Part shown: in pieces, positions 827 through 33,956 of the stretch
Layout: each line of letters opens with the position of its first letter
Position numbering within the stretch: position 1 is the first letter of the stretch
Source of the DNA: Candidatus Bathyarchaeia archaeon
GTDB lineage: Archaea; Thermoproteota; Bathyarchaeia; Bathyarchaeales; Bathycorpusculaceae
Length of the DNA stretch: 64,000 bases
Assembly: GCA_038873195.1 (NCBI GenBank)
Contig: JAVZEV010000001.1
Span: forward strand, 338,490-402,489
Direction of reading: 5' to 3'
The notes under the pieces: generated by a model
Told to the model about the DNA's origin: nothing
The model's database searches: none
What the model saw: only the letters and a program-made list of their open reading frames with translations
Position numbers and translations under genes: made by a program

Positions 827-1894
827 GTGTCGCAGCAAGTTGTTACGAAAAATCCTACTTCAACCACGACAATTGTTGCTGGATGGACTAACCCACAAAA
901 TGCTTATGCAAGCGATAATGCAAGAGCATCGGCGAACATAGAAAATGCAGAACAAGAGTATGGCGGATATGGCTTTGCGGTTCCAGAAAATGCGACGATA
1001 AATAAGGTTGAGGTTGGATTGGAAGGCTATACAAGTGCTGGAGAACAATTGGATGTCAAGATTTATGACGGTTCCTCGTGGTATGCCAAAACAGCGTTAA
1101 TAAGAAGCGGCGAACAATTGGAATGGTTAGATTTCACTGCATATACGCAGTGGATTCCAGAAAAAGTGAACGCTGTTAAAACGAGAATCGTTTTTAGAGG
1201 CACGAGTGGAGGAGGCGACACTTGCTATCCAAAAGAAACCTTTCTTTTATGTGTTGATGTTGACAGAAACTATCTTCTTAAACAATGCAACGAAATCCAG
1301 TCTGGAGACATGGTTTTAGGCTACAGAAAAGACCAAGGATACCATTGCTGTCGCGTCGTAAACGTGGAAAAACATGAGGGCGAATTTGAACTTTTAAAAA
1401 TAACCGTGGACAAGTCTCCAATTGTCAAAGGCGCAGACGTAAGTAAACTGAAGGACTTCAAACCATGGAAAGAATACATTTACGTTACTCCCAACCATGA
1501 AGTCTGCAGTCCTACGCATGATGGCAGAACAAAATGTGGAGAATTAAGAGAAGGAGACTTACTGGTTGACTTACATTTGGGACGAATGATAAACGTGCCC
1601 ATCATAAAAATCGAAAAATCAAAGTATAAAGGCACAGTTTACAATGTGAAGTTAGAACTACACTACGAGGATTTCTTCTACTTCATAATAAGCCTAGAAA
1701 AGGAACACGTAAAAGTATTAGAGAAACTTCTAGGCAAAAATTGGAATTTTTTCAAAAATGTCGAATTCGCCTTGATTGGTTTGGCGATAAAAACGTGGTA
1801 TGTTGACTGGTTACCCGTGAGAGTAACTTACACTGAAGCAACATCAATGACTGGTTACAGCACAAAAATGAGCTTGACAAAAACCGGAAACTAA
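827..1894 (+). CDS. virus-like beta-sandwich protein interrupted by an intein-like Hint domain
   Basis: Protein of 355 residues from a GTG start. Residues 1-132 form a beta-rich domain of the kind found in viral fibre or baseplate proteins. Residues 324-355 read as the direct continuation of that domain (WYVDWLPVRVTY). Between them sits a 191-residue insertion with intein or Hint motifs: Cys133, the GD pair at about 160-161, TPNHEV at 221-226, and a VYNVKLE segment at about 271-277. The insertion lacks the terminal His-Asn expected before the C-extein, so splicing is uncertain. The gene sits one base after the previous structural gene. The outer protein is not assigned to a family. Confidence 0.65.
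   Translation: MSQQVVTKNPTSTTTIVAGWTNPQNAYASDNARASANIENAEQEYGGYGFAVPENATINKVEVGLEGYTSAGEQLDVKIYDGSSWYAKTALIRSGEQLEWLDFTAYTQWIPEKVNAVKTRIVFRGTSGGGDTCYPKETFLLCVDVDRNYLLKQCNEIQSGDMVLGYRKDQGYHCCRVVNVEKHEGEFELLKITVDKSPIVKGADVSKLKDFKPWKEYIYVTPNHEVCSPTHDGRTKCGELREGDLLVDLHLGRMINVPIIKIEKSKYKGTVYNVKLELHYEDFFYFIISLEKEHVKVLEKLLGKNWNFFKNVEFALIGLAIKTWYVDWLPVRVTYTEATSMTGYSTKMSLTKTGN
1223..1795 (+). other. intein-like (Hint-fold) insertion inside the host CDS
   Basis: The insertion begins at Cys133 of the host protein. Its N-terminal block (Cys-Tyr-Pro-Lys-Glu-Thr, then QSGDMVLG) matches intein block A, and TPNHEV matches block B with its conserved Thr and His. YKGTVYNVKLE followed by an aromatic run resembles block F. 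No LAGLIDADG homing domain fits in the 191 residues, so this is a mini-intein or Hint module. The usual HN followed by Cys, Ser or Thr at the C-junction is absent; the sequence reads AIKT then WYVDW. It could be a decayed intein, a cleavage-only Hint domain, or carry a small frameshift near its end. Confidence 0.65.
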
Positions 1895-1953
1895 AAGGAC
1901 AGCTTTTAACAATTTTTAAATCTAAAACATAATAATAGCATAGAGGAGACGTT

Positions 1954-2835
1954 TTGCAGAAAAGATATTTGAAGCTCTTGTTGATTACCTCTTTCTTAAG
2001 TGTTCTAGTAAATGTGCACTTGAAGAATACGACTGCTCATTGCTGGAGTAACGGAGGATACTCTGCGACTCCAGAACATCCTGACTATGGAACTCACGAT
2101 TGGATTGCGCAACACGTTTTAGATTGGCTACCAAACGAAGAAAAACAGTACATCTTAGACAATTTAGCCACTTATTTGTATGGCACCGAATTACCAGACA
2201 ATGGTAACGCCCCAGACGGTATCGGCGACACAACAACACACCACGTTTATTACTGGGCAAACAGAAGCATGCAAGACGATGCCGCAGCCGTTCGAGCACA
2301 GACTGAATACAACAACGCAGTCAATTACATGCGAACTGGTAACATAGCAATGGCGGTAAAGACGCTGGGAATTATGAGCCATTACATTGTTGATGTCGGC
2401 GTGTTCGGTCATGTGATGGGCAGCGGAACAGATTGGGGCTCGGAAACTCACCACAGCGATTACGAAACTTACGTAAACGAGAGAACAAACGCTTACAACG
2501 ACGAATTTAACGCGTTTCTCAGCTTTGACGGAGCTTTAGAGAGCATTTCCGCCTATAACGCTACTTTAACGCTTGCCCACGACACAACATTCGATGCAAA
2601 TGGCAATTTGACATGCGTTTGGATGGATCAAAACTACAACTGGAACAACCTCACATTTCGGAACCGCTGTGGAGAATCACTTAACTTGGCAGTAAACTTG
2701 ATCGCTGACGTTTTACACACGTTCTACGCAAGTGAGATTGTCTCTGAATTCTCTCCCCACACAATCACAGTCATCTTTGTATTTACCACTACCGCGGTTA
2801 TTGCGTTGTGCATTAAGAGAAAGAAAATATGTTAG
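1954..2835 (+). CDS. secreted zinc-dependent phospholipase C-like protein, membrane-anchored
   Basis: Protein of 293 residues. An N-terminal signal peptide covers about residues 1-28 and a C-terminal membrane helix about 266-286. The body has the spacing of the zinc-dependent phospholipase C (PF00882-type) fold: a Trp-containing mature N-terminus, HDWIAQHVLDW, THHVYYWA, an SHYIVDVGVFGHVMG helix and HHSDYETYV, which together supply many His and Asp metal ligands. Members hydrolyse phosphodiester bonds in lipids or nucleic acids outside the cell. The start is TTG, preceded by AGAGGAGA. The gene follows virus-like genes but has the layout of a host surface enzyme. The substrate is not predictable. 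Confidence 0.8.
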   Translation: MQKRYLKLLLITSFLSVLVNVHLKNTTAHCWSNGGYSATPEHPDYGTHDWIAQHVLDWLPNEEKQYILDNLATYLYGTELPDNGNAPDGIGDTTTHHVYYWANRSMQDDAAAVRAQTEYNNAVNYMRTGNIAMAVKTLGIMSHYIVDVGVFGHVMGSGTDWGSETHHSDYETYVNERTNAYNDEFNAFLSFDGALESISAYNATLTLAHDTTFDANGNLTCVWMDQNYNWNNLTFRNRCGESLNLAVNLIADVLHTFYASEIVSEFSPHTITVIFVFTTTAVIALCIKRKKIC

Positions 2836-2852
2836 CACAACATGCAGGGCAA

Positions 2853-3182
2853 TCAAATAAAGAGGTTCGCCACAAGCCCTAAAATTTTGTCTCGCATATT
2901 CAACAAAGCTTTTGTTTTCTTTTTCCCCGTTGGAGTTAGCACGTAACCTCTTTCTTTCTCTGACTGCACCTCTCTAACTAGCTTATTTTCTTGCAGCTGA
3001 TTCAAGCAAGAATAAACCGTTCCAAGAGTTATCGGCACGTTAAATCTTCTCTGGATATAAGAGAGAATCTCATAGTCACTCAACATTCCGTTTCTGAGCT
3101 TTAGTAAGATTAAAGCATCAAGGAAATCCATGACGACTCGTTTATGAAATTGCGTTAGAATCTCTGATTCCAAGTTGCGCAC
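2853..3182 (-). CDS. PadR-family winged-helix transcription regulator
   Basis: Protein of 109 residues from a GTG start. A single winged-helix domain fills most of the chain. The DALILLKLRNG helix, an SDYEILSYIQ segment, a GTVYSCLNQLQENKLV recognition helix and wing, and GYVLTPTGKKK follow the PadR pattern. Such proteins dimerise and repress nearby genes in response to small ligands or stress. It is divergent from the small secreted peptide gene that begins about 100 bases away, making that intergenic region its most likely operator. The ligand is unknown. Confidence 0.8.
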   Translation of the reverse strand: MRNLESEILTQFHKRVVMDFLDALILLKLRNGMLSDYEILSYIQRRFNVPITLGTVYSCLNQLQENKLVREVQSEKERGYVLTPTGKKKTKALLNMRDKILGLVANLFI

Positions 3183-3289
3183 CTACAGAAGTTACTTCTA
3201 TAAGTATTTTTCATATAAACCTTTTTCACTTTTCACCGCACTATATTTTATTTGCAGTGCAAAAACTAAAAAAGGAGGTGAGGCAATAG

Positions 3290-3490
3290 ATGAAGTTGAA
3301 GAATGCCATCGCGATCCTCTTGGTTGTCTTAGCCGCAACAGCCATAGTCAGTGCAGCTACGCTGGCCTTCAAAGGAATCGCTTTATCCAGAAATACGACA
3401 ACATATGCAAACAAGGAAACGTCACGTGCTACAGGCTTTAACGGTGCAGTAGAACTGTTAGGCGACGAGAGAGGTGGAGGATGGCCTTAA
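3290..3490 (+). CDS. small secreted or membrane-tethered peptide
   Basis: Protein of 66 residues. It has a short positive N-terminus, one long hydrophobic segment (about residues 6-29) ending in small residues, and a polar tail ending GGGWP. A near-perfect ribosome site (AAAGGAGGTGAG) lies about 9 bases before the ATG, unusually strong for this window, which suggests high translation. It could be a signal-peptide-bearing exported peptide or a single-pass membrane peptide. It lies between a divergent PadR regulator and a tandem winged-helix regulator. No homologous family is recognised. Confidence 0.7.
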   Translation: MKLKNAIAILLVVLAATAIVSAATLAFKGIALSRNTTTYANKETSRATGFNGAVELLGDERGGGWP

Positions 3491-3552: not shown

Positions 3553-4668
3553 ATGAACAAAACGTTTGACCTCTTGGATGTTGAAATATTAGAGTGCCTC
3601 GGCGAATATGGACCAAGAAACATCTCACAAATAGCTCGAAAACTTGGCGTACCAATAGAAACAGCGCGGAAAAGAGTGAAACGCTTAATCTCTCGATTTT
3701 CTATATCTTTTCACGCGAATGTTTATCACACGAATATTGGGCTTAGGAAAGCGTTTGTTTTTGCTGATGCTGTGCCTGGTTATGAAGATGTGCTTTTTAA
3801 GAGTTTGAAAGCCAATGATTTTTGGCTTTATGTTGGTCGTTGTTACGGTAGGTTTGAGGGTTGCTATGGAATCTACGCCATTCCAAAAGAGCACACGCCA
3901 GAATTTGAACAGTTTGTGAGTCAACTGGAAGCGACGGAGATTGCGAGAAACGTGCGGCTGGTGTGGTCCACGTGTTTGTATTCTGCGAATTTAACGGGGA
4001 ACTGGTTTGATTTTGAGTCTGGGCAGTGGGTTTTTCGTTGGGACAAGTGGATGGAGGAGATACCGAACGAGAAAACCAGTTTGCCCTACACTTTAGTTGA
4101 GTCTAAAGATTTTCCACTCAAGGCTGACTATGTTGATGTTCGTATTTTGGCGAAGTTGGAAGTGGATTCAAGCGTTAGTTTTCGTGAACTTGCAAAAATT
4201 GTTAATTTGACGCCGGAGGCAGTGGCGTATCATTTTAAGAATCATATTTTGAAGCGTGGTTTGCTTGAGAAGTCTCAGGTTTTCGTGTTGCCTTTTGATA
4301 AGTCGGCGTCTGACTTTTTTGTTTTTATCTTCAAGTTTGACGATAGTGCTGGTATGGCGCGGTTTGCGTCTTCTTTGTTGGATAAGCCGTTTTTGCATTC
4401 GTTAGGGAAGGTTTATGGTGAGAACGCGTTGATTGCGCATGTGTATCTTCCGAGAAATGAGTTTAGAAGGTTTGTGCGTTGCTTGTCTGAGCTTATTAAG
4501 AGAGGATTTTTGCGTGAGTATGAGTATTTGATTGAGGATTTTGATGTGCGGTCTGCGCAGACGATTTCTTACGAGTATTTTAAGGATGGCTCATGGGTTT
4601 ATGACCACGAAAAGCATATAGAGAAGCTTCGCGAAATTACAAGAAGCACAAAGTTAGGAAAGTTTTAA
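3553..4668 (+). CDS. tandem winged-helix (Lrp/AsnC-like) transcription regulator
   Basis: Protein of 371 residues containing two copies of a winged-helix plus sensor-like unit. The first helix-turn-helix is near residues 5-48 (ISQIARKLGVPIETARKRVK). The second is near 193-240 (SFRELAKIVNLTPEAVAYHF). Each is followed by about 100 residues of alternating strands like those of Lrp ligand domains, but without an obvious ligand motif. Doubled HTH proteins of this kind are common archaeal regulators. It has its own upstream region with GGGAGAA before the ATG. The target is unknown; the short secreted peptide just upstream is a candidate. Confidence 0.75.
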   Translation: MNKTFDLLDVEILECLGEYGPRNISQIARKLGVPIETARKRVKRLISRFSISFHANVYHTNIGLRKAFVFADAVPGYEDVLFKSLKANDFWLYVGRCYGRFEGCYGIYAIPKEHTPEFEQFVSQLEATEIARNVRLVWSTCLYSANLTGNWFDFESGQWVFRWDKWMEEIPNEKTSLPYTLVESKDFPLKADYVDVRILAKLEVDSSVSFRELAKIVNLTPEAVAYHFKNHILKRGLLEKSQVFVLPFDKSASDFFVFIFKFDDSAGMARFASSLLDKPFLHSLGKVYGENALIAHVYLPRNEFRRFVRCLSELIKRGFLREYEYLIEDFDVRSAQTISYEYFKDGSWVYDHEKHIEKLREITRSTKLGKF

Positions 4669-4682
4669 ACGCATGCGCTCTT

Positions 4683-4841
4683 CTACTCTTCGGTTACCGT
4701 GACTTTTTCCACCGTTTTAAGCCATGGAATCTTTGCTGGTTCGTTTGAAAGCTCATTTAGAATGTCCTGTTCTATCTGCTTGTTTCCAGTTAAGGCGCTT
4801 TCTTTTACAAGAGCGATAACAATTATTGCTTTTTTAGTCAT
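4683..4841 (-). CDS. small conserved-type hypothetical protein
   Basis: Protein of 52 residues beginning MTKKAIIVIALVKES and ending KVEKVTVTEE-like (actual end VEKVTVTEE). The alternating hydrophobic start, an acidic amphipathic helix (about residues 20-32) and a final strand suggest a small alpha/beta fold, perhaps a dimer. Its regular amino-acid use and its sense in a gap between two genes make it a likely real gene. A TATA-like AAAATATT lies upstream on the minus strand. Function is not recognised. Confidence 0.6.
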   Translation of the reverse strand: MTKKAIIVIALVKESALTGNKQIEQDILNELSNEPAKIPWLKTVEKVTVTEE

Positions 4842-4999
4842 GTACTCTGCCTCTGAAGAGTCAATATTTTATGCTTTTTGAGAATTTGAATTTTACTCTA
4901 GTAAAGGGTTTATGGTCTTTTGTTCTAGCCCTAAGGTTCTTACCAGCTTAAATAGTTAAAAAAGGATAAAGGTAAATGTAAATATGGAGAAGGGAGAAT

Positions 5000-6592
5000 A
5001 TGAAGAAAATTCTAAAAGTAGCTTTAGCATTGCTTATGATGTCTGTTTGCTTATCAGTACTTGCGTGTGTACCATATTCTAAAGCGGCAACCCCGGAACA
5101 GATAGAAGCGTCAATAGTTAAGGGGCTTGAATGGTTAGCCGCACAACAGCAGGCTGATGGTTCATGGCCTACTGATTATTATGTTCGCGTCGGTTACACC
5201 GGTATGGCCGTGCTGAAGTTTGAGACACGCGCAGTTGAGTTGAAGAAAGATCCGCTTGATCAAAGCTACGAATACTATGCGCAGGTTAGGAACGGATTGG
5301 ACTTTATCTTCTCAATGGCTCAATTGGTAGATATTTCCGTTCAAACTCATGGCAACCCAGACTCGAACGGTAACGGCAAGGGAGTAACATTCAACACGGA
5401 GGGACGTGAAGGTGAAACATACGGCACTGGAATTGCGTCCATGGCCATAGCGGCGAGCACTCACCCAGAAATGGTAGTGTCTGTTGTAGGAAGCCCCGTG
5501 GACGGTTGGACGTACAAAGATGTGGAGCAAGACGTTATGGACTGGCTTGCTTGGGGACAGAACGAAGAGTCGAACCCTGGTGACTGGTGGCGCGGTGGTT
5601 GGGGGTACGATCCGAACTCTATAGGGTGGTCCGACAACTCCAACTCCGGATATGCATTGCTGGGTTTAGTCTACGCTGAATCGCCTTTGCCACACGGATT
5701 CGGATTGACAGTTCCACAATTCGTCAAAGACGAACTAAACATTTGGATAGATTACATTCAAAACGACATCAACGGAGACGATTTGGACGGAGGATCAGGT
5801 TACAGCGGCCCTGACGGGTGGGTTAATATTCTCAAGACTGGCACTCTGTTGCAGGAGATGGCGTTTGTCGGCGATACTTTAGCTACGCCAAGAGTGGACG
5901 AGGCAATAAAGTACATTGAAAGGCACTGGAACGACCTAAATGGTGACCCTGGTTGGAAATGGAGTTTGCCGACGGTGCATAAGCAAGCCATGTACACGAC
6001 CATGAAAGGCTTCACAGCGTTCAACATAAAACTCATAGACACTGACGCCGATGGAGCCCGCGATGACGACTGGTTCAACGAGTTTGCAGACGCGTTATTG
6101 GCAGAGCAAGCACTCTTTCCTGAGGGCCACTGGAACACAGACGTGTGGGCTGGCGACTATATTATGCCTACTTGTTGGGCGCTCCTCATACTAGAAAAGG
6201 CTGCCCCACCAGTAGCAAAATACGACTTGACAGTCAAAGTAGTTGACGCGAACACGTTAGACCCAATTTCTGGAGCGATGGTAACAGCAAGCGGCCCCGA
6301 ATACCAAGAAGGTTTCACAGGTCTTGACGGAAAAGTGAAGTTCGAAGACATTTTGGCAGGTGGTTATTCAGTAGGTGCTTCAAAAACAGGCTATGTACCA
6401 GCGTCGGTGATGGTTGAAGTTTCTGAAGATACAGAAATAACGATTAGGCTTATGCCCGAAGGCCCGCCTCAACCAGTGGGAGGCTATGAAGCACCACCAA
6501 ACATACTGACATTGATTGCGCCGTGGATATTCTTAGGATTCGCAATTTCAGTCGGAACAATCGCGGTAGCTAGACGCAAAACGAAATACTAA
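5000..6592 (+). CDS. exported toroid-fold (terpene cyclase/prenyltransferase-like) surface protein with CarboxypepD-reg domain
   Basis: Protein of 530 residues. A signal peptide occupies about residues 1-29. Residues 30-400 carry helical repeats with motifs such as EWLAAQQQADGSWP, GGWGYDPN and a final MPTCWALLILEKA, the pattern of squalene-cyclase or prenyltransferase alpha/alpha toroids. These repeats are used here outside the cell and have no evident cyclase DXDD acid motif. Residues 405-490 form a CarboxypepD-regulatory-like beta domain. A C-terminal membrane helix (about 502-524) anchors it. GAGAAGGGAG precedes the ATG. Likely a surface-displayed binding or scaffold protein; enzymatic activity is not supported by visible residues. 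Confidence 0.75.
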   Translation: MKKILKVALALLMMSVCLSVLACVPYSKAATPEQIEASIVKGLEWLAAQQQADGSWPTDYYVRVGYTGMAVLKFETRAVELKKDPLDQSYEYYAQVRNGLDFIFSMAQLVDISVQTHGNPDSNGNGKGVTFNTEGREGETYGTGIASMAIAASTHPEMVVSVVGSPVDGWTYKDVEQDVMDWLAWGQNEESNPGDWWRGGWGYDPNSIGWSDNSNSGYALLGLVYAESPLPHGFGLTVPQFVKDELNIWIDYIQNDINGDDLDGGSGYSGPDGWVNILKTGTLLQEMAFVGDTLATPRVDEAIKYIERHWNDLNGDPGWKWSLPTVHKQAMYTTMKGFTAFNIKLIDTDADGARDDDWFNEFADALLAEQALFPEGHWNTDVWAGDYIMPTCWALLILEKAAPPVAKYDLTVKVVDANTLDPISGAMVTASGPEYQEGFTGLDGKVKFEDILAGGYSVGASKTGYVPASVMVEVSEDTEITIRLMPEGPPQPVGGYEAPPNILTLIAPWIFLGFAISVGTIAVARRKTKY

Positions 6593-6684
6593 CTTCCCTC
6601 TTTTTCTTTTTTGTTTATGTTAACATTTTTAGGAAAGCACTCGCATTTTACTGTCACTGATTAACCAAACACAGATGAAAACAC

Positions 6685-7551
6685 ATGAAAAGAAGTGCCA
6701 GAAAAAAGAAACTTGCATGGAAAAGAGCGTTCAAAAGCAAATGGATGGCATTAACGGTCGTTTCAATACTTACAGGATTGCTAATTTACTATTTCTTCCT
6801 TCCGAAAGCACCAGCTGTTTACGAAGCAATACCAAAAACAGCCGCTATAGTTGACCAACTAGCCATGACTCACCCAAACATTGCATTCATCACAAGTGTC
6901 AGCGACACATTAACGTCAGCAGGCTTTAGTGTTGACTATTACAATTATTCGGAAGTGACTGTTGATTTTTACAAGCAGTTGCCCTCAAAACGATACAGTC
7001 TAATCATCTTACGAGTGCATTCTGGCGTAGGTCAATATTCTGGATTAACCAGCCTCTACACATCAGAACCTCACAGTCAATGGCCACACTACTGGGAACA
7101 AATGAACGACGAAGTAGTCGCAGTGGAATACGTCTCAGGCGGTCCAATATACTTTGCAATCACATCCAAATTCGTGAAAAACTCAGACGCTTGCAAAAAC
7201 TCTATAATAATAATGATGGGATGTGACGGATTAACAGCAACTGACATGGCGACTGCTTACGTTGAAAAAGGAGCAAGAGCCTACATAAGCTGGAACGGTC
7301 CAGTATCTCCCGGACACACAGACACAGCCACGGGTGAGCTTATACGAAACTTGGTCTTAAAAAACCAGACAATAGCAGATGCGGTTAACAATACAATGAA
7401 CGTGGTGGGTTCCGACCCAAACTATCACAGCCAACTGGCTTTTTACCCCACACAATCAAGCAATTATACGCTTCTCAACAGCCCAAGCACTGCTGAAAAA
7501 CCCTACCGTGCATACATTGTTACAGGATACGCGAAAAAACGGATTAAATAA
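6685..7551 (+). CDS. membrane-anchored caspase-fold (clan CD peptidase-like) protein
   Basis: Protein of 288 residues. A basic N-terminus and a single membrane helix (about 20-40) are followed by an extracellular domain. SLIILRVHSGVG puts a His at 112 and SIIIMMGCDGL puts a Cys at 180. The hydrophobic-strand-His-Gly-like and strand-Gly-Cys arrangement is that of gingipain, caspase and CHAT (clan CD) folds. The residue after His is Ser then Gly rather than Gly directly, so activity is probable but unproven. It ends in an 8-base convergent overlap with the next gene. Possible roles include processing of the many surface proteins nearby. Confidence 0.65.
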   Translation: MKRSARKKKLAWKRAFKSKWMALTVVSILTGLLIYYFFLPKAPAVYEAIPKTAAIVDQLAMTHPNIAFITSVSDTLTSAGFSVDYYNYSEVTVDFYKQLPSKRYSLIILRVHSGVGQYSGLTSLYTSEPHSQWPHYWEQMNDEVVAVEYVSGGPIYFAITSKFVKNSDACKNSIIIMMGCDGLTATDMATAYVEKGARAYISWNGPVSPGHTDTATGELIRNLVLKNQTIADAVNNTMNVVGSDPNYHSQLAFYPTQSSNYTLLNSPSTAEKPYRAYIVTGYAKKRIK

Positions 7552-16659: not shown

Positions 16660-18267
16660 TCAACACAGCCCTAAAACCCGCCTCTTCAAAAAAACAAGCA
16701 AAAACCCACACAAAACCACAAAAAACACCACGCCAGCCAAAGAAGGAAACTCCAAAACTACGCTATACTTGAAAAAAACTCCGCCATCATCATTCACCGC
16801 AACATTCCCCACATTATCAAAAGCCACAACCTTAAACTCCACACGCGTACCATCCGCAAAACCCGGAATAACCCCCTCATAATCATTCAAGTAAACATGA
16901 CTCATACCAACAACAACCCAATCCCCCGCACCCTCAACCCTAAACCACAAACTCACATTACAAACGCCACTCCCAAAATCCACAACACTAACGCTAACAG
17001 TAACATTCACAAAAGCCCCAACATCACCCGAAGGCACCCGCACCGGAACCCCAACCAAAGGCGCAACATCATCAACAAAAAACGCCCACAAAACATGCAC
17101 ACCATCCATAACCACACTAACCGGATTCTCACGCCTAACCACACCATCCAACAACCAATAATCAAAAGAAAACCCAACATCCGCAACCGCATGCACAAAA
17201 ACAACCGAACCCTCAGTAAAATTATAAACCCCCGGCGCAGGCATAGTCGACCCCCCAGCACCAGCCATAACAGTCAACCCATAAACCGCAACATTAAAAC
17301 GCCTAACCAAAGGATAACGGTCCACATTATCAGAACCCATAAAATATGCCGTGTCCCAAACTCCAGAATCATCAATCTCCGTAGCATTCGGATACCGCTC
17401 CAAAAAATCACTCCAAAAATTACCGCCAGAAGGAAAACCATCATCCCACACGTTAACCTCCGCATCAGAAACATCAAACTGCCAATGATTACCAACAAAA
17501 TCATTATGAAAAAGGAAATTACCACCAGCAAGCCTCAAAGTCACACCGTACATGCTACTATTAGCCACAACATTCTCCTCAACAACGTTCCCACTAGAAT
17601 GTGCCACATAAACCCCAAACGAATTATCCTCCACAACATTACCCTTAACCACATTACCATCAGAACCCGCATAAAGATAAACACCATAACCATTATCAAA
17701 AACACGATTACAACTCAAATTATTACCACTCGACCCGTAAAGCCTAACGCCATAAGTGCCACTGTTATGCGCAACCACATTACCAAAAAACGTGTTATTA
17801 GCTGAATTCGAAAACCAAACACCATACTCATTCCCAACAACACTATTATTACAAATCAAACAAAAATCAGCAAAATCCAACTTAACCCCACAAAACGGAG
17901 TAACAGGACCAACACCACTATTCCGCAAAGTAAAACCACAAACCGTCACATTATCAGCCTCAACCAAAACCACATGCCCATTTCCACCACCATCAACAAC
18001 CGTGCTTTCCCAGCCCTCACCAACAAGCGAAACACTCTTGTTCACAACAACATTCTCAAAATAAACCCCAGCATACACAAGAACAGTGTCACCATTCTCA
18101 GCCGCATTAATCGCCTCTTGAATAGAACCAAAATCGCCGCCGACACCAACAGTGATTATTTTAGGGCTTTGTCCAGAAACAAACGCTTTCCACTCAAAGC
18201 AGAGGCTAACCAAAACAAGCGAAAGAAGCAACAACAGCAAAAGCACAACGCGCTTTCTCGTTTTCAC
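16660..18267 (-). CDS. exported NosD-like parallel beta-helix protein with InlB-type repeat and membrane anchor
   Basis: About 535 residues. A signal peptide is followed by a NosD/CASH-type right-handed beta-helix (about residues 40-300 of the mature region) with repeated GNVV, NNS and GVYL turns, starting at FGSIQEAINAAENGDTV. A divergent InlB-type repeat and an Ig-like domain come next, then a C-terminal membrane helix with RR tail. Such proteins bind or cleave polysaccharides at the surface. I chose GTG 18267 because the signal peptide begins there; a TTG at 18333 would add a 22-residue leader. The coding strand is G+T-rich, opposite to the genes of the fibre operon. Confidence 0.75.
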   Translation of the reverse strand: MKTRKRVVLLLLLLLSLVLVSLCFEWKAFVSGQSPKIITVGVGGDFGSIQEAINAAENGDTVLVYAGVYFENVVVNKSVSLVGEGWESTVVDGGGNGHVVLVEADNVTVCGFTLRNSGVGPVTPFCGVKLDFADFCLICNNSVVGNEYGVWFSNSANNTFFGNVVAHNSGTYGVRLYGSSGNNLSCNRVFDNGYGVYLYAGSDGNVVKGNVVEDNSFGVYVAHSSGNVVEENVVANSSMYGVTLRLAGGNFLFHNDFVGNHWQFDVSDAEVNVWDDGFPSGGNFWSDFLERYPNATEIDDSGVWDTAYFMGSDNVDRYPLVRRFNVAVYGLTVMAGAGGSTMPAPGVYNFTEGSVVFVHAVADVGFSFDYWLLDGVVRRENPVSVVMDGVHVLWAFFVDDVAPLVGVPVRVPSGDVGAFVNVTVSVSVVDFGSGVCNVSLWFRVEGAGDWVVVGMSHVYLNDYEGVIPGFADGTRVEFKVVAFDNVGNVAVNDDGGVFFKYSVVLEFPSLAGVVFFVVLCGFLLVFLKRRVLGLC

Positions 18268-18502
18268 GGCATCATCAACATTCCTAACCAAACGCAAATT
18301 CTTATCACTTGCGGAATAAACCAATAGAAGCAAGTTATAGAAGAAAGTTTCAGAAAATAGTTATCGAACTTAATTCAATTAATGTGTTTTGGACGACTGA
18401 GAAAGGAGAAGCGTATCGCAAGACGTAATATTTATTACTCTCCACACCAACTGTATACAACACCAACAAAAATACACACGAAAAAGGGGAGAAAAAAACC
18501 AA

Positions 18503-20510: not shown

Positions 20511-20786
20511 TCTGAATCCGCATCAGAACAGCAAACAACCAGATAAATAATTTATGCACACAATCGCTAATAAAATTAACTGCACCAGTCTTCTATAAAA
20601 CAAATTATAACACACGCCCATTTCAAAAATCAACAAAAAAGCCCACAAACTTTTCAATTAAAACCACCCAAAAACAGCAGCCCTAAAAAGCCTATTCCAA
20701 AAAACCAATTCCAAAACCACCATTTCAACGCAAAAATAGCTTAAATCCAACCTAATTCCCGTTTCTGCTTGAGGAATGAGCCGCAC

Positions 20787-21140
20787 ATGGCAAACGTGTC
20801 AACCGAAGATGTCCGCGACGTAATAAACATCACACCCGCAGAAATCCCAGACGAAAAAATCCAAAAAATGATAAAACGCGCAGAAGTCACACTTGAACTC
20901 GAACTAAACAAAAAAATCGACCCCAACAACTGCACAGACGCAGAAAAAGAATTCATCACACTCCTAGCCGCAACATACGCAATCTGCTACCTAACAGGCG
21001 GCTCAGCAGTAGGCCTAAACTTCACAATAGGCGACCAAAACACCAGCCTAGCAAACAACACCCCACCACTAGACGTTCTACAAACAGAACTCAACCGCAT
21101 ACTAACCCACCTAAAACCAACACACGTGAGGCAAGCATAA
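20787..21140 (+). CDS. tailed-virus head-tail connector-like protein
   Basis: Protein of 117 residues, mostly helical: STEDVRDVINITPAEIPDEKIQKMIKRAEVTLE is the layout of phage gp6-type head-tail connector (DNA-packaging adaptor) proteins, which join the portal to the tail. I chose ATG 20787, which follows GAGGAATGA. It overlaps the next gene by one base. Together with the terminase at 31 kb this suggests a tailed-virus genome that has been broken up. Family assignment is by pattern only. Confidence 0.55.
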   Translation: MANVSTEDVRDVINITPAEIPDEKIQKMIKRAEVTLELELNKKIDPNNCTDAEKEFITLLAATYAICYLTGGSAVGLNFTIGDQNTSLANNTPPLDVLQTELNRILTHLKPTHVRQA

Positions 21141-22180
21141 TGCAAGTCCCAGAAAACTACTACCAATTCATAATAGACCATGCACCATACATTTACGTTA
21201 CACCACCAGACACTCCAGACCCACAATGGGGACGCGCAGCCTTCGCAGCCGCCTTCGCAATCGACTTCCTCACCGAAGCCTACACAAAACCACAGTTCGA
21301 AAACCGAACAACAGAAATCCACAACAAAATAACAAATCTAGCCAACTGGATTCTAACCCAACAATGCACAGACACAGATGAACTCGCATACGGCGGATTC
21401 AAAAGCAACGAAAACAGCACATACTACTACGCCATTGATGCTTGCCTTTTTGAGTTGGACAGCGGAAAAGAAGTTAACGCCGAGCTTTATCCGACTCTAA
21501 ACTTCTATGTCCGACGTGACAATAGTTTTAACGGAAACTTAAACGTAATCCTCTATGACACAGCAAGCAAAATGGCAACTCAGATGGTTACGATTGGAGC
21601 CAGCGAATGGTTCAGAAAAGAGTTAGGAGTTGGAGCCAAAAACACTGATTATTGGCAGGTTCAAAGCGGCTTCGACTGGACTCACGTGACGGCTGTTCGC
21701 TTTGACTGCTGGTTTACGGGGTCTGGCACTGGCAGCTTCTGGGTTGATGGCTTAAATTTTGGCGGTCGCAGATACAGTAGCGTTCAAGAAGACGCTGCAA
21801 GCCAGAACGCGTATGGTTTAAGAGAGCTTGTAGAGGTTGACGAGGAGCTTTACAGTGACAACGAATGTGCCCTGCGGGCTAAGGCGTTGCTGGCTTATCT
21901 GAAAGACCCAGCAGAATATTTGACAATTCGAAGTACAGTCATAGACTACGGCAACACGCCGCTCTTGCCTGGAGACAAAATCCACGTTACATTGCCGAAC
22001 GAGAATGTTGACGCTGACTTTCGAATTTTAAGCGTTGAATACCATGTTGACGCAAAAACGCAGACGCTTGAGATAACAATGGAACTTGGACGCGAAACGC
22101 CTTTACTAGCAGATTACCTATTTGCCTTACGCAGTAAAACTGACCATTTAAGTCGCTACAAAATTGCGAGGCTGATTTAG
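21140..22180 (+). CDS. chimeric virus tail-type protein
   Basis: Protein of 346 residues. The N-terminal 95 residues (ending TYYYAIDAC) look like the start of a helical-toroid protein from archaeal proviruses. Residues from about 97 onward resemble the C-terminal part of a tail hub or baseplate protein, with an ARALLAYLKD-like segment, then LLPGDKIHVTLP and ADFRILSVEYHVDAKTQTLEITMELG. Base composition changes from A+C-rich to balanced at about 21430, exactly between these two parts. This suggests an in-frame deletion or recombination joining two genes. Whether the product is functional is unknown. Confidence 0.55.
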   Translation: MQVPENYYQFIIDHAPYIYVTPPDTPDPQWGRAAFAAAFAIDFLTEAYTKPQFENRTTEIHNKITNLANWILTQQCTDTDELAYGGFKSNENSTYYYAIDACLFELDSGKEVNAELYPTLNFYVRRDNSFNGNLNVILYDTASKMATQMVTIGASEWFRKELGVGAKNTDYWQVQSGFDWTHVTAVRFDCWFTGSGTGSFWVDGLNFGGRRYSSVQEDAASQNAYGLRELVEVDEELYSDNECALRAKALLAYLKDPAEYLTIRSTVIDYGNTPLLPGDKIHVTLPNENVDADFRILSVEYHVDAKTQTLEITMELGRETPLLADYLFALRSKTDHLSRYKIARLI

Positions 22181-22455: not shown

Positions 22456-23241
22456 ATGGGCGATTGCATGCGACAAATACCTACGGGCATTGATGGCTTA
22501 GACAAAATGTTAAATGGCGGCTTACCTGCAGGACGCTCAATTCTTCTCATTGGTAATCCAGGCTCTGGGAAAACCATCCTAAGCTTTCAGTTCTTATGTT
22601 ACGGTGCAATCCATAACGAGCCCGGCTTGTACGTTTCGCTTGATGAAGACATAAAACTTCTAAAAGAAGAGTTAGCTGGTTTCGATTGGAACATTAATAA
22701 ACTGGAAGAAACTCGCAAGTTAGCGCTTATTGATGCTTCTCCTGTAAGGCATATTCCTGGAGAAGTCAAAATTGGCGATTACCGAATCGGCAAAAGAGAT
22801 TTCAGTCTTTTCAGCCTATTAGAAATTATCAGAAGCCACGCTGAAAAAATAAACGCCAAACGCATAGTCATCGACCCTCTTGCCAGTTTAATCCTTCAAT
22901 ATGAAAATACCGCAGAAAGACGAAATGCAACGTTGGACTTGCTTGAGGCTCTTGCAAAACTGGGAACAACCAACATAATTACCACAGAGCTTAAGGCGTT
23001 AACTTTGCAGAGGGAAGTGCTTGTAGAAGAGTTTTTGTCGCATGGAGTCATAGTGCTTCATTCGTGGAGAAGCCAATTTCTCGCTCATGGCGGCATACAA
23101 ATAGAGAAAATGCGCGGAATCGCCCATGACAACCAAATTCGCCCATACAAGATAACCAGCAAAGGCATCGAAGTCTTCGCAGAAGAAGAGCCTCTAGTTG
23201 ATGTGGACAAGACAGCTTTTGTTCCACAACGTTCTCCCTAA
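22456..23241 (+). CDS. KaiC-like RecA-superfamily ATPase
   Basis: Protein of 261 residues forming a single KaiC domain: IPTGIDGLDKMLNGGLP, Walker A GNPGSGKT (residues 33-40), a Walker B strand RIVIDPLASL and a conserved IEKMRG segment near residue 218. Single-domain archaeal KaiC-like proteins act in signalling, motility and gene control. Its 3' end overlaps by 4 bases the end of a convergent gene whose product carries the same fold on the inner side of the membrane, so the two may interact. ATG at 22456 or 22468 can both serve. Confidence 0.88.
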   Translation: MGDCMRQIPTGIDGLDKMLNGGLPAGRSILLIGNPGSGKTILSFQFLCYGAIHNEPGLYVSLDEDIKLLKEELAGFDWNINKLEETRKLALIDASPVRHIPGEVKIGDYRIGKRDFSLFSLLEIIRSHAEKINAKRIVIDPLASLILQYENTAERRNATLDLLEALAKLGTTNIITTELKALTLQREVLVEEFLSHGVIVLHSWRSQFLAHGGIQIEKMRGIAHDNQIRPYKITSKGIEVFAEEEPLVDVDKTAFVPQRSP

Positions 23242-25862
23242 ACAAGAAACACTATTCCACGTTTTTCGTCTATTTCAAAATCAATCCATTTGTCAGAAGG
23301 CTTTCTTCCACGCATCTTCTTAACATGCAACCTACGAACCCTCTTTCCCTTAATAGTATTCACATCCAACTCAATCACACAGTCAACAAACTCCTCAAGA
23401 CGATTCACCAAACTCGGCTCAATCGTTTCCTTGCCTACAGTAAAAACAAAAGTGCCATTCACTCCTTTAATGCGTGCACTACGGTCTTGCAAAAACTCAA
23501 CAACTTTCGAAGGGTCAACATGCGTTAAAAGTGGAACAACCGAATCAAAGAAAACTTTCGGCGAACCTCCAGCCTCACCTGTCACTTGCGACATTATTAT
23601 TCCCAGATCAGCTAACGAAAACGGTTGAGCCAACGAGTACTTTTCTTTACTGCTGACTTTTGCTATAGAAGAGAAGCAGTCGATGAATAGAAACTTCTTT
23701 TTCTCTTCATAGTCAGACATGTCAAGATGAAATTTTTTCATGTCTTCTCTAACTTCATTCGGAAAACAGTCATAATTAACATAAATGCAAGTATTTCCTT
23801 CCTTCAAAAAAGAATACGCCAATTCTTGGCATAAAGTGCTCTTTCCCGAACCAGGCATGCCAGTGACCAAAACAGAGAAGGAATCAGGTATGCCTCCGTC
23901 AGTTATCTCCTTGAAATAGTCAAATCCTCTTGCATTTTTGCCAGAGTTTCGCCTTTTCCACAAAACTCCTCCAAAAAACAGTATTAAAGGCGGAATAACC
24001 AGTAGAAACCAAATCCAATTTATGCTTGGTGGAGCCGAAGTGTCGCTGTCTTCGCTTATTGTTATTGTTTGAACTGCTTCTTTGTATCCGCCGTTGTTGT
24101 CGATTAATGTTAAAGTCACGTTAAAAGTCCCGGAGCTGGTGTAAACATGTGTTATCATTGGATTGCTGGTTTCTGTTACGTTGCCATCGCCAAAATTCCA
24201 AACATAACTCACTATTACACCATCTTGGTCATAACAGCCAGACGCGTCAAAAACCACCACTTCATCCTTTTTTGGTTGTGCAGGTATTATTGTTATGGAG
24301 GCTAAAGGTAGACGGTTAAGCACAGTCACGAACTGAGTGGTAATGTTTGAGGCGCCATCATTGTCTATGACATTAAGTTTTACAGAGTAAATTCCAGTGT
24401 GCGCATAAGAGTGGTTCACGGTTGCGCCGACAGCATTTGTTTCGTCATCAAAATCCCAATAATAACTAACTATTGTGCCGTCTGGGTCAAAACTAGTGCT
24501 TGCGTTGAAGAGTATGGTTTCGCCAGTGTAGACGATTTGGGCAGATTTTGTGAACTGCGCAATTGGCGGTCTGTTTTGGATTGTGATTGCGCTTTGCAAT
24601 GTGCTTTTTAATCCTTCGTTGTCTGTTACTGTAAGCGTTACAGTGTATGTTCCATTGTCAGCGTAGACGTGATTTGCAGTTATGCCCGTGGCGTTTGCGC
24701 CGTCTCCAAAATCCCAAAAGTAATCTGTTACTGTTCCGTCTAGGTCATAACTGTTTGTGGCGTTGAATGTTACGCTCTCCTGCGTTAATGGTGTGGCTGG
24801 TGTGAACGTGAAGTTTGCAGTTGGCGGAGTCTTAACAAGTGCGTAGATATACTGGTTTTCTGTTGTTGTTCGTCCAGCCAAACTCGTTATAGTCGCTGTT
24901 ACAGTGAAGTTGTGAATGCCAGAAACATATGGTGCTGTAACATTAAATTCTATATAGTTCTGTGCCATAGAAGTGTTTAATGCATATTTCAGGACATCTT
25001 TTGTAAAGTCCCATTTGAGCTTGTCCACACCATTCTCGTTATAATAAGTTACCACATCACCGTAAGGAAGGTAAGCAGAGCCAGGGGTGTATGTCCATCC
25101 TTGTGGCAGTGTTATGTTTACAGTAGCGTAGTTTATTCCTTGCGAATTTCTTGACATTGTTATGGGTATCAACCTAATGCGTGTTGGCAAGCCAGCAATT
25201 ATTGTTCTGTCTTCGTTGAAAAGCCATTCTGGATTTGGGTGTGCATGGTTCTCGTCTGTTGGATTTGTTGTCAAGTTAAAGTCTGCGCGAAACAGTGTTG
25301 TGGCGGCGTTGTCGTGTCCGCTATGCGATGTGTAAAGTGGCGAGGTTAGCCATTGTGTGCCATCGTAGGCTTGCAGGCAGTAGGTTGTTACTATTCCATC
25401 ATTGTTTACGGAGTACACGGGTACTTCAATCCATGTTACGATAAGAGATTTAGCTGGCACGTTTACTGTGATGCTTCCAGGCGAGTATTCCCAGTAGATT
25501 GTTTTGTCGTCTGGGTTATAGGTTGTTGGTGACGCGGTAAAGTAGCGCGTGTCATAGCACCGTACGTTTCTGGCTACGTCAATTATTTTTGCAGTGGCGT
25601 TATACAGCCATCTTAAGCCCGTCACGGTTATAGGCGCGTTTGTTGGGTTATATAGCACGGCTTGGTAGAACCATCCTGACGGGTCGATGTCGTCTAGTCT
25701 TGCGAAGCTGGCGGCTTCAGCATACACCTGTAGCGTAGTAGTGTCAGCATTTACGATGGTGGGCGTTTTGAGGTTGAGAATTTGCAGAAAAGCCAAAAAC
25801 AGAAGTAAGCATAGTGTTATTTTCTGTAACTTTTTGTTTTTTGTAAGTTTGCTGTTTTTCAT
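23238..25862 (-). CDS. transmembrane receptor-like fusion: extracellular PKD domains and cytoplasmic KaiC-like ATPase
   Basis: Protein of 874 residues. A signal peptide covers about 1-39. A beta-rich region (about 40-340) precedes three PKD domains (about 345-600; repeated YFWDFGDG-, YYWDFDDE- and YVWNFGDG-type motifs). One membrane helix (about 614-634) is followed by basic residues, then a cytoplasmic RecA/KaiC-like domain with Walker A GMPGSGKST at 668-676 and a Walker B-like KKFLFIDCFSS. The layout is that of a sensor or transporter-like signalling protein that couples an outer ligand to an inner ATPase. Role inferred. It faces a separate soluble KaiC-like gene. Confidence 0.85.
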   Translation of the reverse strand: MKNSKLTKNKKLQKITLCLLLFLAFLQILNLKTPTIVNADTTTLQVYAEAASFARLDDIDPSGWFYQAVLYNPTNAPITVTGLRWLYNATAKIIDVARNVRCYDTRYFTASPTTYNPDDKTIYWEYSPGSITVNVPAKSLIVTWIEVPVYSVNNDGIVTTYCLQAYDGTQWLTSPLYTSHSGHDNAATTLFRADFNLTTNPTDENHAHPNPEWLFNEDRTIIAGLPTRIRLIPITMSRNSQGINYATVNITLPQGWTYTPGSAYLPYGDVVTYYNENGVDKLKWDFTKDVLKYALNTSMAQNYIEFNVTAPYVSGIHNFTVTATITSLAGRTTTENQYIYALVKTPPTANFTFTPATPLTQESVTFNATNSYDLDGTVTDYFWDFGDGANATGITANHVYADNGTYTVTLTVTDNEGLKSTLQSAITIQNRPPIAQFTKSAQIVYTGETILFNASTSFDPDGTIVSYYWDFDDETNAVGATVNHSYAHTGIYSVKLNVIDNDGASNITTQFVTVLNRLPLASITIIPAQPKKDEVVVFDASGCYDQDGVIVSYVWNFGDGNVTETSNPMITHVYTSSGTFNVTLTLIDNNGGYKEAVQTITISEDSDTSAPPSINWIWFLLVIPPLILFFGGVLWKRRNSGKNARGFDYFKEITDGGIPDSFSVLVTGMPGSGKSTLCQELAYSFLKEGNTCIYVNYDCFPNEVREDMKKFHLDMSDYEEKKKFLFIDCFSSIAKVSSKEKYSLAQPFSLADLGIIMSQVTGEAGGSPKVFFDSVVPLLTHVDPSKVVEFLQDRSARIKGVNGTFVFTVGKETIEPSLVNRLEEFVDCVIELDVNTIKGKRVRRLHVKKMRGRKPSDKWIDFEIDEKRGIVFLV

Positions 25863-30844: not shown

Positions 30845-31147
30845 ATGACAGAACCACCACTTCAACCTATAAATAAGGGAGGGGGTAGCCAAACAGAGAA
30901 GAAAAACGCAAAAGACCTAATCGAAATCGAATGGACCATCATCAACAAACTCCTAAAAATGGCAGAAAACACCCACTCAGAAAACAAAAGAGCATTTTAC
31001 TACCAAACACTAGCAGGACACATCCGCACACTCTCAGCCCTACTCAAACTTCACGGACAACCAGACCAAACCGCAGACTTAGCCAAACTCCTAAGCCAAA
31101 TCCAAACCCAAGCAAAAACCCTCGCAAAAAGGCTCAAAAGAAAATGA
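30845..31147 (+). CDS. terminase small subunit-like protein
   Basis: Protein of 100 residues, mostly helical (DLIEIEWTIINKLLKMAENTH, AGHIRTLSALLKLHG). The stop overlaps the start of the large terminase by 4 bases (ATGA), the usual coupling of small and large terminase genes. Small subunits recognise viral DNA before packaging. The family is assigned by position and size, not by a motif. Confidence 0.6.
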   Translation: MTEPPLQPINKGGGSQTEKKNAKDLIEIEWTIINKLLKMAENTHSENKRAFYYQTLAGHIRTLSALLKLHGQPDQTADLAKLLSQIQTQAKTLAKRLKRK

Positions 31148-32517
31148 CCATCGAAGCCCTAAAACAACTAAAAGAAAACCCAACACTCTTCGCACAAACA
31201 CTCCTAAACTTCAACCCCTTCCCATACCAACAACAACTCCTAAACGACCAAACCAAACGCATCATCGCCTGCATGGCAAGACAAACAGGCAAAACCACAA
31301 CCATCGCAACAAAAGCAATACACTACGCATACACAAACCCAAACACAACAACACTAATAATATCGCCATCACTCCGCCAAAGCATAATAATGTTCGACAA
31401 AATCCTAAACTTCATCACCAACAACCCACTACTCAACCAAAGCGTAACCCGCAAAACACGAACCCTAATCCAACTAACAAACAAATCTCAAATAATCGCA
31501 CTACCATGCAGCGAACACCAACTCCGCGGATACACCGCACACCTAACAATCTGCGACGAAGCCGCATTCACACCCGAACACATAATAACAGAAATAATCC
31601 TCCCAATGCTCAGCACAACAAACGGAACCGCAATCCTCCTAAGCACACCATGGGACAAAAACCACTTCTTCCACCAAGCCTTCCTAAACCCAAACTACAC
31701 CACATACAAAATCAAATCAGAACAAAACCCACTAATCCCAAAACAATTCCTCCAAGAAATGCAACAAAACATGACAAAAGAAGCCTACAAACGCGAATAC
31801 GAAGCCGAATTCACAGAAACCCAAAACACCTACTTCCCACAAGAACTAATCCGCAAATGCGTAGAACACGCACAAAAAATCAACCTAGAACCCTACACAA
31901 ACCTCGAACAACCAACACAACAAGGCAACTACTACGCAGGAATAGACCTCGGCAAACTCAAAACCCACACCGCAATAGCAATAACCCAAAAACAAGAAAA
32001 CGACACAATCAAACTCGTCTACACACACGAATTCCCACTCGAAACACCATGCACACAAATAATCCAACACCTAAAAAACGCACAACAAAAACTCAACATC
32101 CAAAAAACCCTCATAGACCAAACAGGCATCGGCGAACCAATCCTCGAAGAAATCCAAAACCAAAACATACCAAACACACAAGGCATAAAATTCACAAACG
32201 AAACCAAAACCCAACTCCTAACACACCTAAAACTCCTAATGGAACAACAAAAACTCGCAATCCCATACAACAAAAAACTCCTCCAACAAATAAACAACCA
32301 ACAATACACATACACAAAAACCGGAAAACTCCAATTCACACATCCACCTAACACAAACGACGACCTCCTCTGGGCACTAGCACTCGCATGCTACGCCACA
32401 AAAACAGAACCAACACCCAAATTCTGGGTCATCGCAAAAATGAGCAAAGGCAAACACAAACTAAAACAATTAAGAAAAAAACTTCTCAAACACCAAACCA
32501 CAGGCACAACAAGATGA
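31144..32517 (+). CDS. terL: terminase large subunit
   Basis: Protein of 457 residues. An ATPase domain carries Walker A MARQTGKTT (residues 44-52) and a Walker B LTICDEAAF. A C-terminal RNase H-like nuclease domain begins near YYAGIDLGKLKTHTAIAI and contains later conserved acids. It drives ATP-dependent packaging of DNA into tailed-virus heads. The protein appears full length. The coding strand is very A+C-rich (Asn, Thr and Gln codons), unlike the region before 30.5 kb. No portal or capsid gene was found next to it, which is odd for an intact provirus. Confidence 0.9.
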   Translation: MTIEALKQLKENPTLFAQTLLNFNPFPYQQQLLNDQTKRIIACMARQTGKTTTIATKAIHYAYTNPNTTTLIISPSLRQSIIMFDKILNFITNNPLLNQSVTRKTRTLIQLTNKSQIIALPCSEHQLRGYTAHLTICDEAAFTPEHIITEIILPMLSTTNGTAILLSTPWDKNHFFHQAFLNPNYTTYKIKSEQNPLIPKQFLQEMQQNMTKEAYKREYEAEFTETQNTYFPQELIRKCVEHAQKINLEPYTNLEQPTQQGNYYAGIDLGKLKTHTAIAITQKQENDTIKLVYTHEFPLETPCTQIIQHLKNAQQKLNIQKTLIDQTGIGEPILEEIQNQNIPNTQGIKFTNETKTQLLTHLKLLMEQQKLAIPYNKKLLQQINNQQYTYTKTGKLQFTHPPNTNDDLLWALALACYATKTEPTPKFWVIAKMSKGKHKLKQLRKKLLKHQTTGTTR

Positions 32518-33956
32518 CAAGAAAACAAGAATATTTTAAAATAACAAAACTCGCAAGACGCTACGACAAACGAACAGGCAAGTTCACCTTCAACATCACC
32601 TACGAAACAGCCACACAACTAACACCCCGCACACTTAACGTCGCAGAAACCTTCGGCTTAGGCATAGACCAAACCCAAAAATTCCCAATCTACGACAATG
32701 TGGAATTAAAAATCAGCCCAAAAGACATTGTCTACATCACAGGCGACAGCGGCTCAGGAAAAAGCGTCCTATTAAAAGCCATAAAACACGATTTAGGCAA
32801 AGAAGCAGCAGACATGCAAAAAATAAAGCCAAACCCAAACAAACCAATAATCGACACAATCGGCAAAAACTTCACCGAAGCACTCGAACTGTTAAGCAAG
32901 GCTGGATTAAACGACGCTTTCCTATTCGTTAGGCGTTTTCGAGAACTAAGCGATGGACAAAAATATCGCTACCGAATCGCGAAATTAATGGAAAGCCGCA
33001 AACAATGGTGGATTGCTGACGAGTTCTGCAGCGTTTTAGATCGTGACACGGCGAAGATTGTGGCTTTTAATTTGCAGAAGGCTGCGAGGCAGATGGGTAA
33101 GGCTGTGGTTGTGGCGACGACTCATGGGGATTTGTTTGAGGATTTGAGGCCTAGTGTGCATGTTCATAAGCGGTTTGGTAAGGAAATCAGTGTGAAGTAT
33201 TATGTGAATGAGGCGGCAGGGGAGTGTAGTTTGATGAGGGAGATGCGTGTTGAAGAAGGCACTTTTGCGGATTATAAGTGTTTGAGTGGTTTTCATTATC
33301 GTTCTGGTCGTTGTCCGCCTCCGAGGAAGGTTTTTGTTTTGAGGCGTGGTGGTGAGTTATGTGGGGTTATTGTTTACAGTTATGCGTCGCCTTTGGCTTT
33401 TGGCAGAAGTAAAGTGTGGAAGGGCAGTTTTGGTGATTTGCAGAGGGATTTTAGTGTTGTTAGTCGTGTGGTTGTGCATCCGAAGTATCGCTCGATTGGT
33501 TTGGGTGTTAGGCTTGTGCGGGAGACTTTGGCTTTGGCTGGGACGCGTTTTGTTGAGTTGGTTGCGGTTATGGCTAGGTATAATCCTTTTGCGGAGAGGG
33601 CTGGGATGCGTAGGGTTGCTGTGCAGTTGCCTTGTAAGCAGGCGTTGAGGGTTGTGGAGGTTTTGGAGAGGGTGGGGTTTTGTAGGGATTTGTTGGGTTG
33701 TGAGAATTATTTGCGTGGTAGGTTGGCGTGTTTGAGTGAGAAGGAGATTGGGGAGATTAAGGATGCGTTTGTTGGGAATGTGCATCCGCGGTTTGTGCGG
33801 TGTTTTGGTGGGGGTTCTGTGTTTGGGGATAAGAAGGCTTATGTTGAGGGGGTGAGACGTGCGGGTGTTGAGAAGCTTGTGAAGTTGATTAGGGTTTGTG
33901 GTGTTTTGTTGCAGGTGAAGGTTTATTTGTTTTGGGATAAGTTTGGAGAATTATAA
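32514..33956 (+). CDS. COG2401-like fusion: ABC-type ATPase and GNAT acetyltransferase
   Basis: Protein of 480 residues. Walker A GDSGSGKS is at 77-84. A signature-like ELSDGQKYRYRIAKLM and a Walker B WWIADEFCSVLD are present, together forming an ABC-type ATPase. From about residue 290 a GNAT acetyltransferase follows: VVVHPKYRSIGLGVRLVRETL is the acetyl-CoA binding motif. Such fusions (COG2401) occur in archaea and in proviruses; role unknown. The start overlaps the terminase stop by 4 bases. Base use turns from A+C-rich at the beginning to G+T-rich after about 33050 in the same frame. Confidence 0.8.
   Translation: MTRKQEYFKITKLARRYDKRTGKFTFNITYETATQLTPRTLNVAETFGLGIDQTQKFPIYDNVELKISPKDIVYITGDSGSGKSVLLKAIKHDLGKEAADMQKIKPNPNKPIIDTIGKNFTEALELLSKAGLNDAFLFVRRFRELSDGQKYRYRIAKLMESRKQWWIADEFCSVLDRDTAKIVAFNLQKAARQMGKAVVVATTHGDLFEDLRPSVHVHKRFGKEISVKYYVNEAAGECSLMREMRVEEGTFADYKCLSGFHYRSGRCPPPRKVFVLRRGGELCGVIVYSYASPLAFGRSKVWKGSFGDLQRDFSVVSRVVVHPKYRSIGLGVRLVRETLALAGTRFVELVAVMARYNPFAERAGMRRVAVQLPCKQALRVVEVLERVGFCRDLLGCENYLRGRLACLSEKEIGEIKDAFVGNVHPRFVRCFGGGSVFGDKKAYVEGVRRAGVEKLVKLIRVCGVLLQVKVYLFWDKFGEL

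Follow-up and report, generated by a model that had tools for sequence, protein, structure and literature searches.

Makarova, Galperin and Koonin are said to have described, in 2017 (mBio e01959-17), the KaiC-like ATPases of archaea as a signalling hub with iKaiC fusions. One KaiC-like protein, ArlH, is able to bind ATP but not to hydrolyse it, and at the membrane it acts as a switch for its partner ATPase, ArlI; ArlH also autophosphorylates (PMC8978795). Inactivated 'iKaiC' domains occur in archaeal signalling proteins (PMC5847659). The locus considered below lies in a window of 64,000 nucleotides, the whole stretch of DNA that was analysed, which is part of the 1.63-Mb genome of a Candidatus Bathyarchaeia archaeon. 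It consists of two KaiC-like genes arranged tail to tail, one encoding a protein with a predicted membrane anchor and the other a soluble protein, and the conservation of this pair throughout the class, in about 40 genomes, suggests a two-protein transmembrane signalling system.

The membrane protein and its relatives

The larger gene (23238..25862, minus strand) is an 874-aa open reading frame with an ATG start and no interruption, and encodes in order an export helix, an ectodomain, a transmembrane helix and a KaiC domain. Residues 1–40 (25743..25862) are predicted from hydropathy to form an export signal or signal anchor, with a Lys-rich n-region, a hydrophobic stretch at 11–37 and the sequence PTIVNA-D. 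The N-terminal ectodomain that follows (residues 41–344; 24831..25742) is without a Pfam match, is predicted to be mostly beta, and is single-copy, no paralog of the ectodomain having been found within the window's own genome. Three PKD domains occupy residues 345–604 (24051..24830), where Pfam PKD_4 matches in three stretches (E=6.2e-61); their pLDDT is mostly 70–92 for the first two and about 50–65 for the third in a full-length AlphaFold model which, built from 4 sequences, has an overall pLDDT of 44 and is too poor for use. A transmembrane helix is predicted at residues 610–637 (core 616–634; 23952..24035), and the KRR after it would place the C-terminal side in the cytoplasm. By hydropathy the protein has exactly two hydrophobic segments, 11–37 and 610–637 (peak 2.29 at 616–634), and three relatives have an identical two-segment pattern. 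The KaiC/RecA-like domain (residues 646–872; 23247..23927) is recognised by PF06745 (E=2.4e-36), its score of 125.7 bits exceeding the cutoff of 26.6. An AlphaFold model of the transmembrane and ATPase part, based on an alignment of 32 sequences, has a pLDDT of 88.2, and the best Foldseek match of the ATPase domain is PH0284 (2dr3; E=4.5e-20, TMt 0.84), followed by ArlH and KaiC CI. Pfam and hydropathy thus confirm what a first-pass annotation had read from the letters, namely an export signal, three PKD domains, a membrane helix and a KaiC-like ATPase in one protein; the two findings that it had named beforehand as speaking against itself, a missing helix between the PKD and ATPase parts and a broken ATPase domain, did not materialise, the helix being predicted at 616–634 and the domain being uninterrupted.

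The ectodomain is acidic, with 27 K/R against 56 D/E, and the middle part of about 570 residues contains 15 N-glycosylation sequons (N-x-S/T), compared with one in the cytoplasmic part, a composition consistent with extracellular placement. Taken together, hydropathy and charge predict the layout of a type I membrane receptor—signal, ectodomain, one transmembrane helix, cytoplasmic domain—and the same layout is predicted for four relatives and for nearly all complete members, in which an N-terminal hydrophobic segment is accompanied by a second one directly ahead of the KaiC domain.

A search with the ATPase part across the 91 genomes of the window's family returned close relatives in 4, and a profile built from those four matches 71 of 257 class genomes at E<=1e-25, many of the matches lying in open frames of 570–930 aa. 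The search for a like architecture in other archaea, which the first-pass annotation had proposed as a check, therefore finds it across this Bathyarchaeota-type class with swappable ectodomains: among 20 relatives, PKD occurs in 7, CarboxypepD_reg in 9 and CARDB in 5, and from family to family the ectodomain is replaced completely and the ATPase retained. Ligand binding by the PKD domains, which are present in just those 7, is a guess. A sequence-pattern scan of genome contigs gave one relative only, and in the phylum genomes searched beyond the class, strong long relatives are confined to two genomes, G350 and G311. Several further observations concern individual members. A Candidatus Bathyarchaeota MAG (L021, JACAEK010000020.1) appears identical to a contig of the window's family (G055:C58) and has the same open reading frames; at 4483–6802 it carries a frameshift towards the C-terminal end of the membrane KaiC, after which the match resumes in another frame, reflecting either assembly error or decay. 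In family f10, four loci (L071–L074) encode further long KaiC proteins of the degenerate clade, of 834–874 aa and with one or two hydrophobic segments, none of them next to a soluble KaiC; the L071 protein has its KaiC domain in the middle, with some 220 more residues after it.

The soluble protein and the catalytic residues

Converging on the membrane gene is the gene for a soluble single-domain KaiC-like ATPase of 261 aa (22456..23241, plus strand; PF06745 E=1.8e-56). Both proteins exceed the curated PF06745 cutoff and so belong to the KaiC-like ATPase superfamily. The two genes share exactly four bases, an overlap already noticed at first pass; these bases, CTAA at 23238..23241, contain both stop codons. 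Selection was gauged against the sister species (G001): the membrane protein has a dN/dS of 0.109 over its full length and of 0.056 over the ATPase part, and the soluble KaiC has one of 0.05, low values which indicate that both genes are maintained. In a quick tree with SH-aLRT support but without bootstrap, and with long branches present, soluble and membrane KaiC domains form two clades (SH-aLRT 100), within each of which the families group alike.

The division between the clades extends to the active site. The Walker A motif of the membrane protein, GMPGSGKS (residues 668–675; 23838..23861, minus strand), is intact, with G and K invariant in the 32-row alignment and Lys present in 42 of 43 membrane copies. 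The Walker B aspartate, D773 (23544..23546), is Asp in all 43, and K849 (23316..23318), the counterpart of the trans-acting K224 of KaiC, is Lys in 42; a finger Arg of the R226 type is found in about 30 of the 43, the window's membrane protein reading KMR. The first-pass annotation had recognised the intact Walker A and missed what lies downstream of it, where the catalytic Glu-Glu of KaiC (E77/E78 of CI) is represented by the degenerate pair D698-C699 (23766..23771), as assigned by profile alignment to 2dr3 and KaiC. Twenty different combinations occupy this position among the 43 membrane copies; the window's clade has D at the first position and Cys, Ser or Gly at the second. The soluble partner has the acidic pair D63-E64 (22642..22647, plus strand), and its orthologs read D-E in 40 of 42 and G-E in the other two, so that the second position is E throughout. 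Its fingers, K218-M-R220 (23107..23115), correspond to K224/R226 and are KR in 42/42, and essentially every soluble copy retains both Walker motifs as well as the catalytic Glu and the K/R fingers. Measured against the CI type, the membrane protein lacks the Glu-Glu pair (D-C) and the soluble partner has D-E, while the K224/R226 fingers are present in the window's membrane protein and in every soluble copy. Measured against iKaiC domains, the membrane protein combines a degenerate catalytic pair with retained Walker motifs and finger Lys.

Judged by these residues, the membrane KaiC of the window's clade looks like an ATP binder with poor or nil hydrolysis, and the soluble KaiC is the more likely hydrolysing member of the two, since the Glu pair is degenerate in the membrane copies and kept in the soluble ones. 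The degree of inactivation may vary among lineages: membrane copies of families f12–f15 often have a single acidic residue (E or D) left at the second catalytic position, and weak hydrolysis would be possible for these and, with its D at the first position, for the window's clade. The first-pass reading of a receptor with ATPase-driven signalling consequently survives in its receptor-like type I layout but is not supported, as worded, in the role given to the protein's own ATPase. That the membrane protein is nonetheless itself an active ATPase receptor as in the first-pass model, with binding outside altering hydrolysis by its own KaiC domain and the soluble KaiC working in parallel or downstream, could be argued from its Walker A, Walker B and trans-acting Lys, from Asp698 at the first catalytic position and from the strong purifying selection on the ATPase domain. 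However, the Glu pair is unconserved in the membrane clade and conserved in the partner clade, and the Cys, Ser or Gly at the second catalytic residue of the window's clade likewise makes independent activity unlikely.

Conserved pairing and a proposed signalling unit

The pairing of the two genes was followed with a profile of the soluble protein (A5), built from 18 soluble proteins that adjoin a membrane gene. It matches 42 genomes at E<1e-100, the next paralogs appearing only from about 1e-92. At 38 of these 42 loci the membrane gene is convergent, with a gap of -20 to +94 bp; in a 39th convergent case (G154) the membrane gene is a fragment at a contig end, in two genomes (G145, G146) the genes stand in tandem 260–268 bp apart, and in one (G117) they are about 96 kb apart. 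Eighteen of the 42 loci had been chosen for the profile as neighbours, and 23 of the remaining 24, which were found blind, are convergent. The pairing spans families f1, f4 and f10–f15, and this conservation shows that membrane and soluble KaiC are paired; the earlier suggestion that the soluble protein may be the partner thereby gains a conserved neighbour, from which we infer the interaction itself. The outer flanking genes are unlike between families, and no constant third gene or output domain was found at the pair. Convergent genes of this kind are not co-transcribed. Some of the conservation of adjacency may have a structural cause, interlocked stops being hard to separate, although the 4-bp overlap occurs in 17 of the 38 convergent loci and the other 21 pairs adjoin without it, so that interlocked stops alone are insufficient to explain the linkage.

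Related arrangements occur elsewhere. G350 (L124), which belongs to a different class within the phylum, has a soluble KaiC gene and, 40 bp downstream of it in the same orientation, a gene for a polytopic-membrane KaiC, an operon-like arrangement (984–3479, plus strand); the polytopic protein is 557 aa long and combines several membrane helices with a KaiC domain that belongs to the degenerate clade yet reads D-E. In f10 and G311 (L096–L099, L125) there is a second, paralogous pair, in which the neighbour of a soluble KaiC is a degenerate-clade KaiC extended at its N-terminus; the extension is roughly 100 aa, helical and winged-helix-like by eye, and a Pfam search of it did not name a winged-helix domain. 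In L097–L099 a third KaiC gene adjoins this pair. What recurs is an intact soluble KaiC next to a KaiC of the degenerate clade whose N-terminus is input-like.

The favoured reading, at a probability of about 0.55, is that the pair forms one signalling unit in which an ATP-binding receptor subunit regulates a soluble ATPase. It draws directly on the architecture, the predicted export and transmembrane topology, the folds, the residue conservation, the purifying selection and the conserved pairing; physical interaction, ring assembly, loss of hydrolysis and the direction of signalling are what we infer from them. The 874-aa protein would be exported and held in the membrane by its single helix, and its variable extracellular beta-domains, here the N-terminal domain without a Pfam match and three PKDs, would contact something outside the cell, candidates being a ligand, a surface glycan or protein, or a mechanical load. 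The cytoplasmic KaiC-like domain would bind ATP as a degenerate subunit with poor or nil hydrolysis; such domains may form rings, as other KaiC/RecA domains do, beside or stacked on the soluble KaiC, and could switch the partner's ATPase or kinase activity, its oligomer state or its partners. A more specific form of the proposal, in which the receptor's degenerate KaiC and the intact soluble KaiC make a mixed ring whose ATPase or kinase state is set by extracellular events, is tentative and falls short of even odds. Were the proposal true, the class would possess a receptor-kinase-like archaeal system built on the KaiC fold in place of histidine kinases. The pair predicts a split into regulatory subunit and enzyme, and offers a concrete, testable two-protein unit for the input of outside signals to archaeal KaiC-like hubs.

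The membrane protein might instead be mainly a surface anchor, adhesin or scaffold that tethers the soluble KaiC to the membrane, for instance close to the envelope or the archaellum/pilus machinery, without transferring a signal from the ectodomain. PKD, CARDB and CarboxypepD_reg-like ectodomains are frequent in structural surface proteins, and the wholesale exchange of the ectodomain with retention of the ATPase would suit such a role, but a degenerate, strongly constrained nucleotide-binding domain with its Walker motifs retained exceeds the needs of a tether, and the polytopic and non-membrane paralogs likewise pair with a soluble KaiC; this reading is accordingly judged improbable. Convergent genes in compact prokaryotic genomes are expected to overlap commonly by interlocked stops of the CTAA type, and the genomes studied here contain many KaiC paralogs, but that the adjacency is a mere accident of compactness, with unrelated paralogs that once became convergent locked in place by their stops, is very hard to credit against the 21 convergent pairs that are adjacent though without the overlap, the unconserved flanks, the tandem pairs of G145 and G146, the operon-like tandem pair of G350 and the second, paralogous convergent pair.

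The surroundings of the pair were also considered as a source of functional hints. In G055/L021 and G086 it lies among PFK, GalT-like and glycogen debranching genes, with a glycosyltransferase in G055 only; glycogen or sugar sensing was rejected as such neighbours are absent from the window's genus and from other families, and the debranching gene of the window's genome is about 1 Mb from the pair. A viral origin was rejected because the pair's relatives lie in ordinary chromosomal surroundings, despite terminase and tail-like genes in the window, and among phage records none has this architecture, one PKD match being the only hit. Anti-phage defence was rejected too, PADLOC models giving only weak matches, mostly in the Walker region. 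The window encodes a terminase large subunit (30931–32517, plus strand; PF03237 E=3e-15, phrog_2 E=4e-42), marking a provirus or remnant near the pair; the G001 ortholog of this gene lies similarly far from the KaiC pair. A small open reading frame and a 346-aa protein with weak likeness to YqbQ / prophage tail endopeptidase (20769–22180, plus strand) are a possible tail-gene remnant. Also present are a 522-aa protein in which an ABC-type ATPase is fused to a GNAT acetyltransferase domain (32388–33956, plus strand) and a surface protein of the NosD-like right-handed beta-helix type that has a divergent InlB repeat (16660–18333, minus strand).

Comparison with known systems

No literature on an archaeal transmembrane KaiC with a PKD domain was found, nor was a single-pass receptor with a class-wide convergent KaiC partner found in the literature searched, the scope of which did not include Makarova 2017. 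On the extracellular side, the PKD domains of collagenase ColH and the archaeal surface layer protein 1l0q offer similar beta-sandwich repeats, though in proteins without a cytoplasmic ATPase. Among solved structures, those closest in fold to the ATPase domain, PH0284 (2dr3), PH0186 (2zts) and SSO2452 (2w0m), are soluble, stand-alone proteins, and PH0284 retains the Glu-Glu pair. Cyanobacterial KaiC shares the RecA-type domain with Walker A/B and a K224-type finger, whereas its double domain, CII phosphosites and KaiA/KaiB partners set it apart from the window protein with its one KaiC domain; the circ_KaiC model gives 37 bits, below its cutoff of 546. ArlH has the KaiC fold as well, 4yds being among the Foldseek matches of the window's ATPase domain, but it is soluble, without an ectodomain or transmembrane helix, and it works with ArlI, which is not a KaiC but an ATPase of the type IV pilus kind; the NCBIfam ArlH model, whose cutoff is 215, gives the membrane protein 75 and its soluble partner 44, so neither is ArlH. 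The iKaiC fusions resemble the pair in joining degenerate KaiC-like domains to sensory or output domains beside intact KaiC-like ATPases, and differ in that the examples considered here, fusions to REC, PAS and HalOD1, include neither a single-pass receptor bearing an extracellular PKD or CARDB domain nor a conserved convergent pair of receptor and soluble protein. The component parts of the locus are of known kinds, and iKaiC fusions are known elsewhere.
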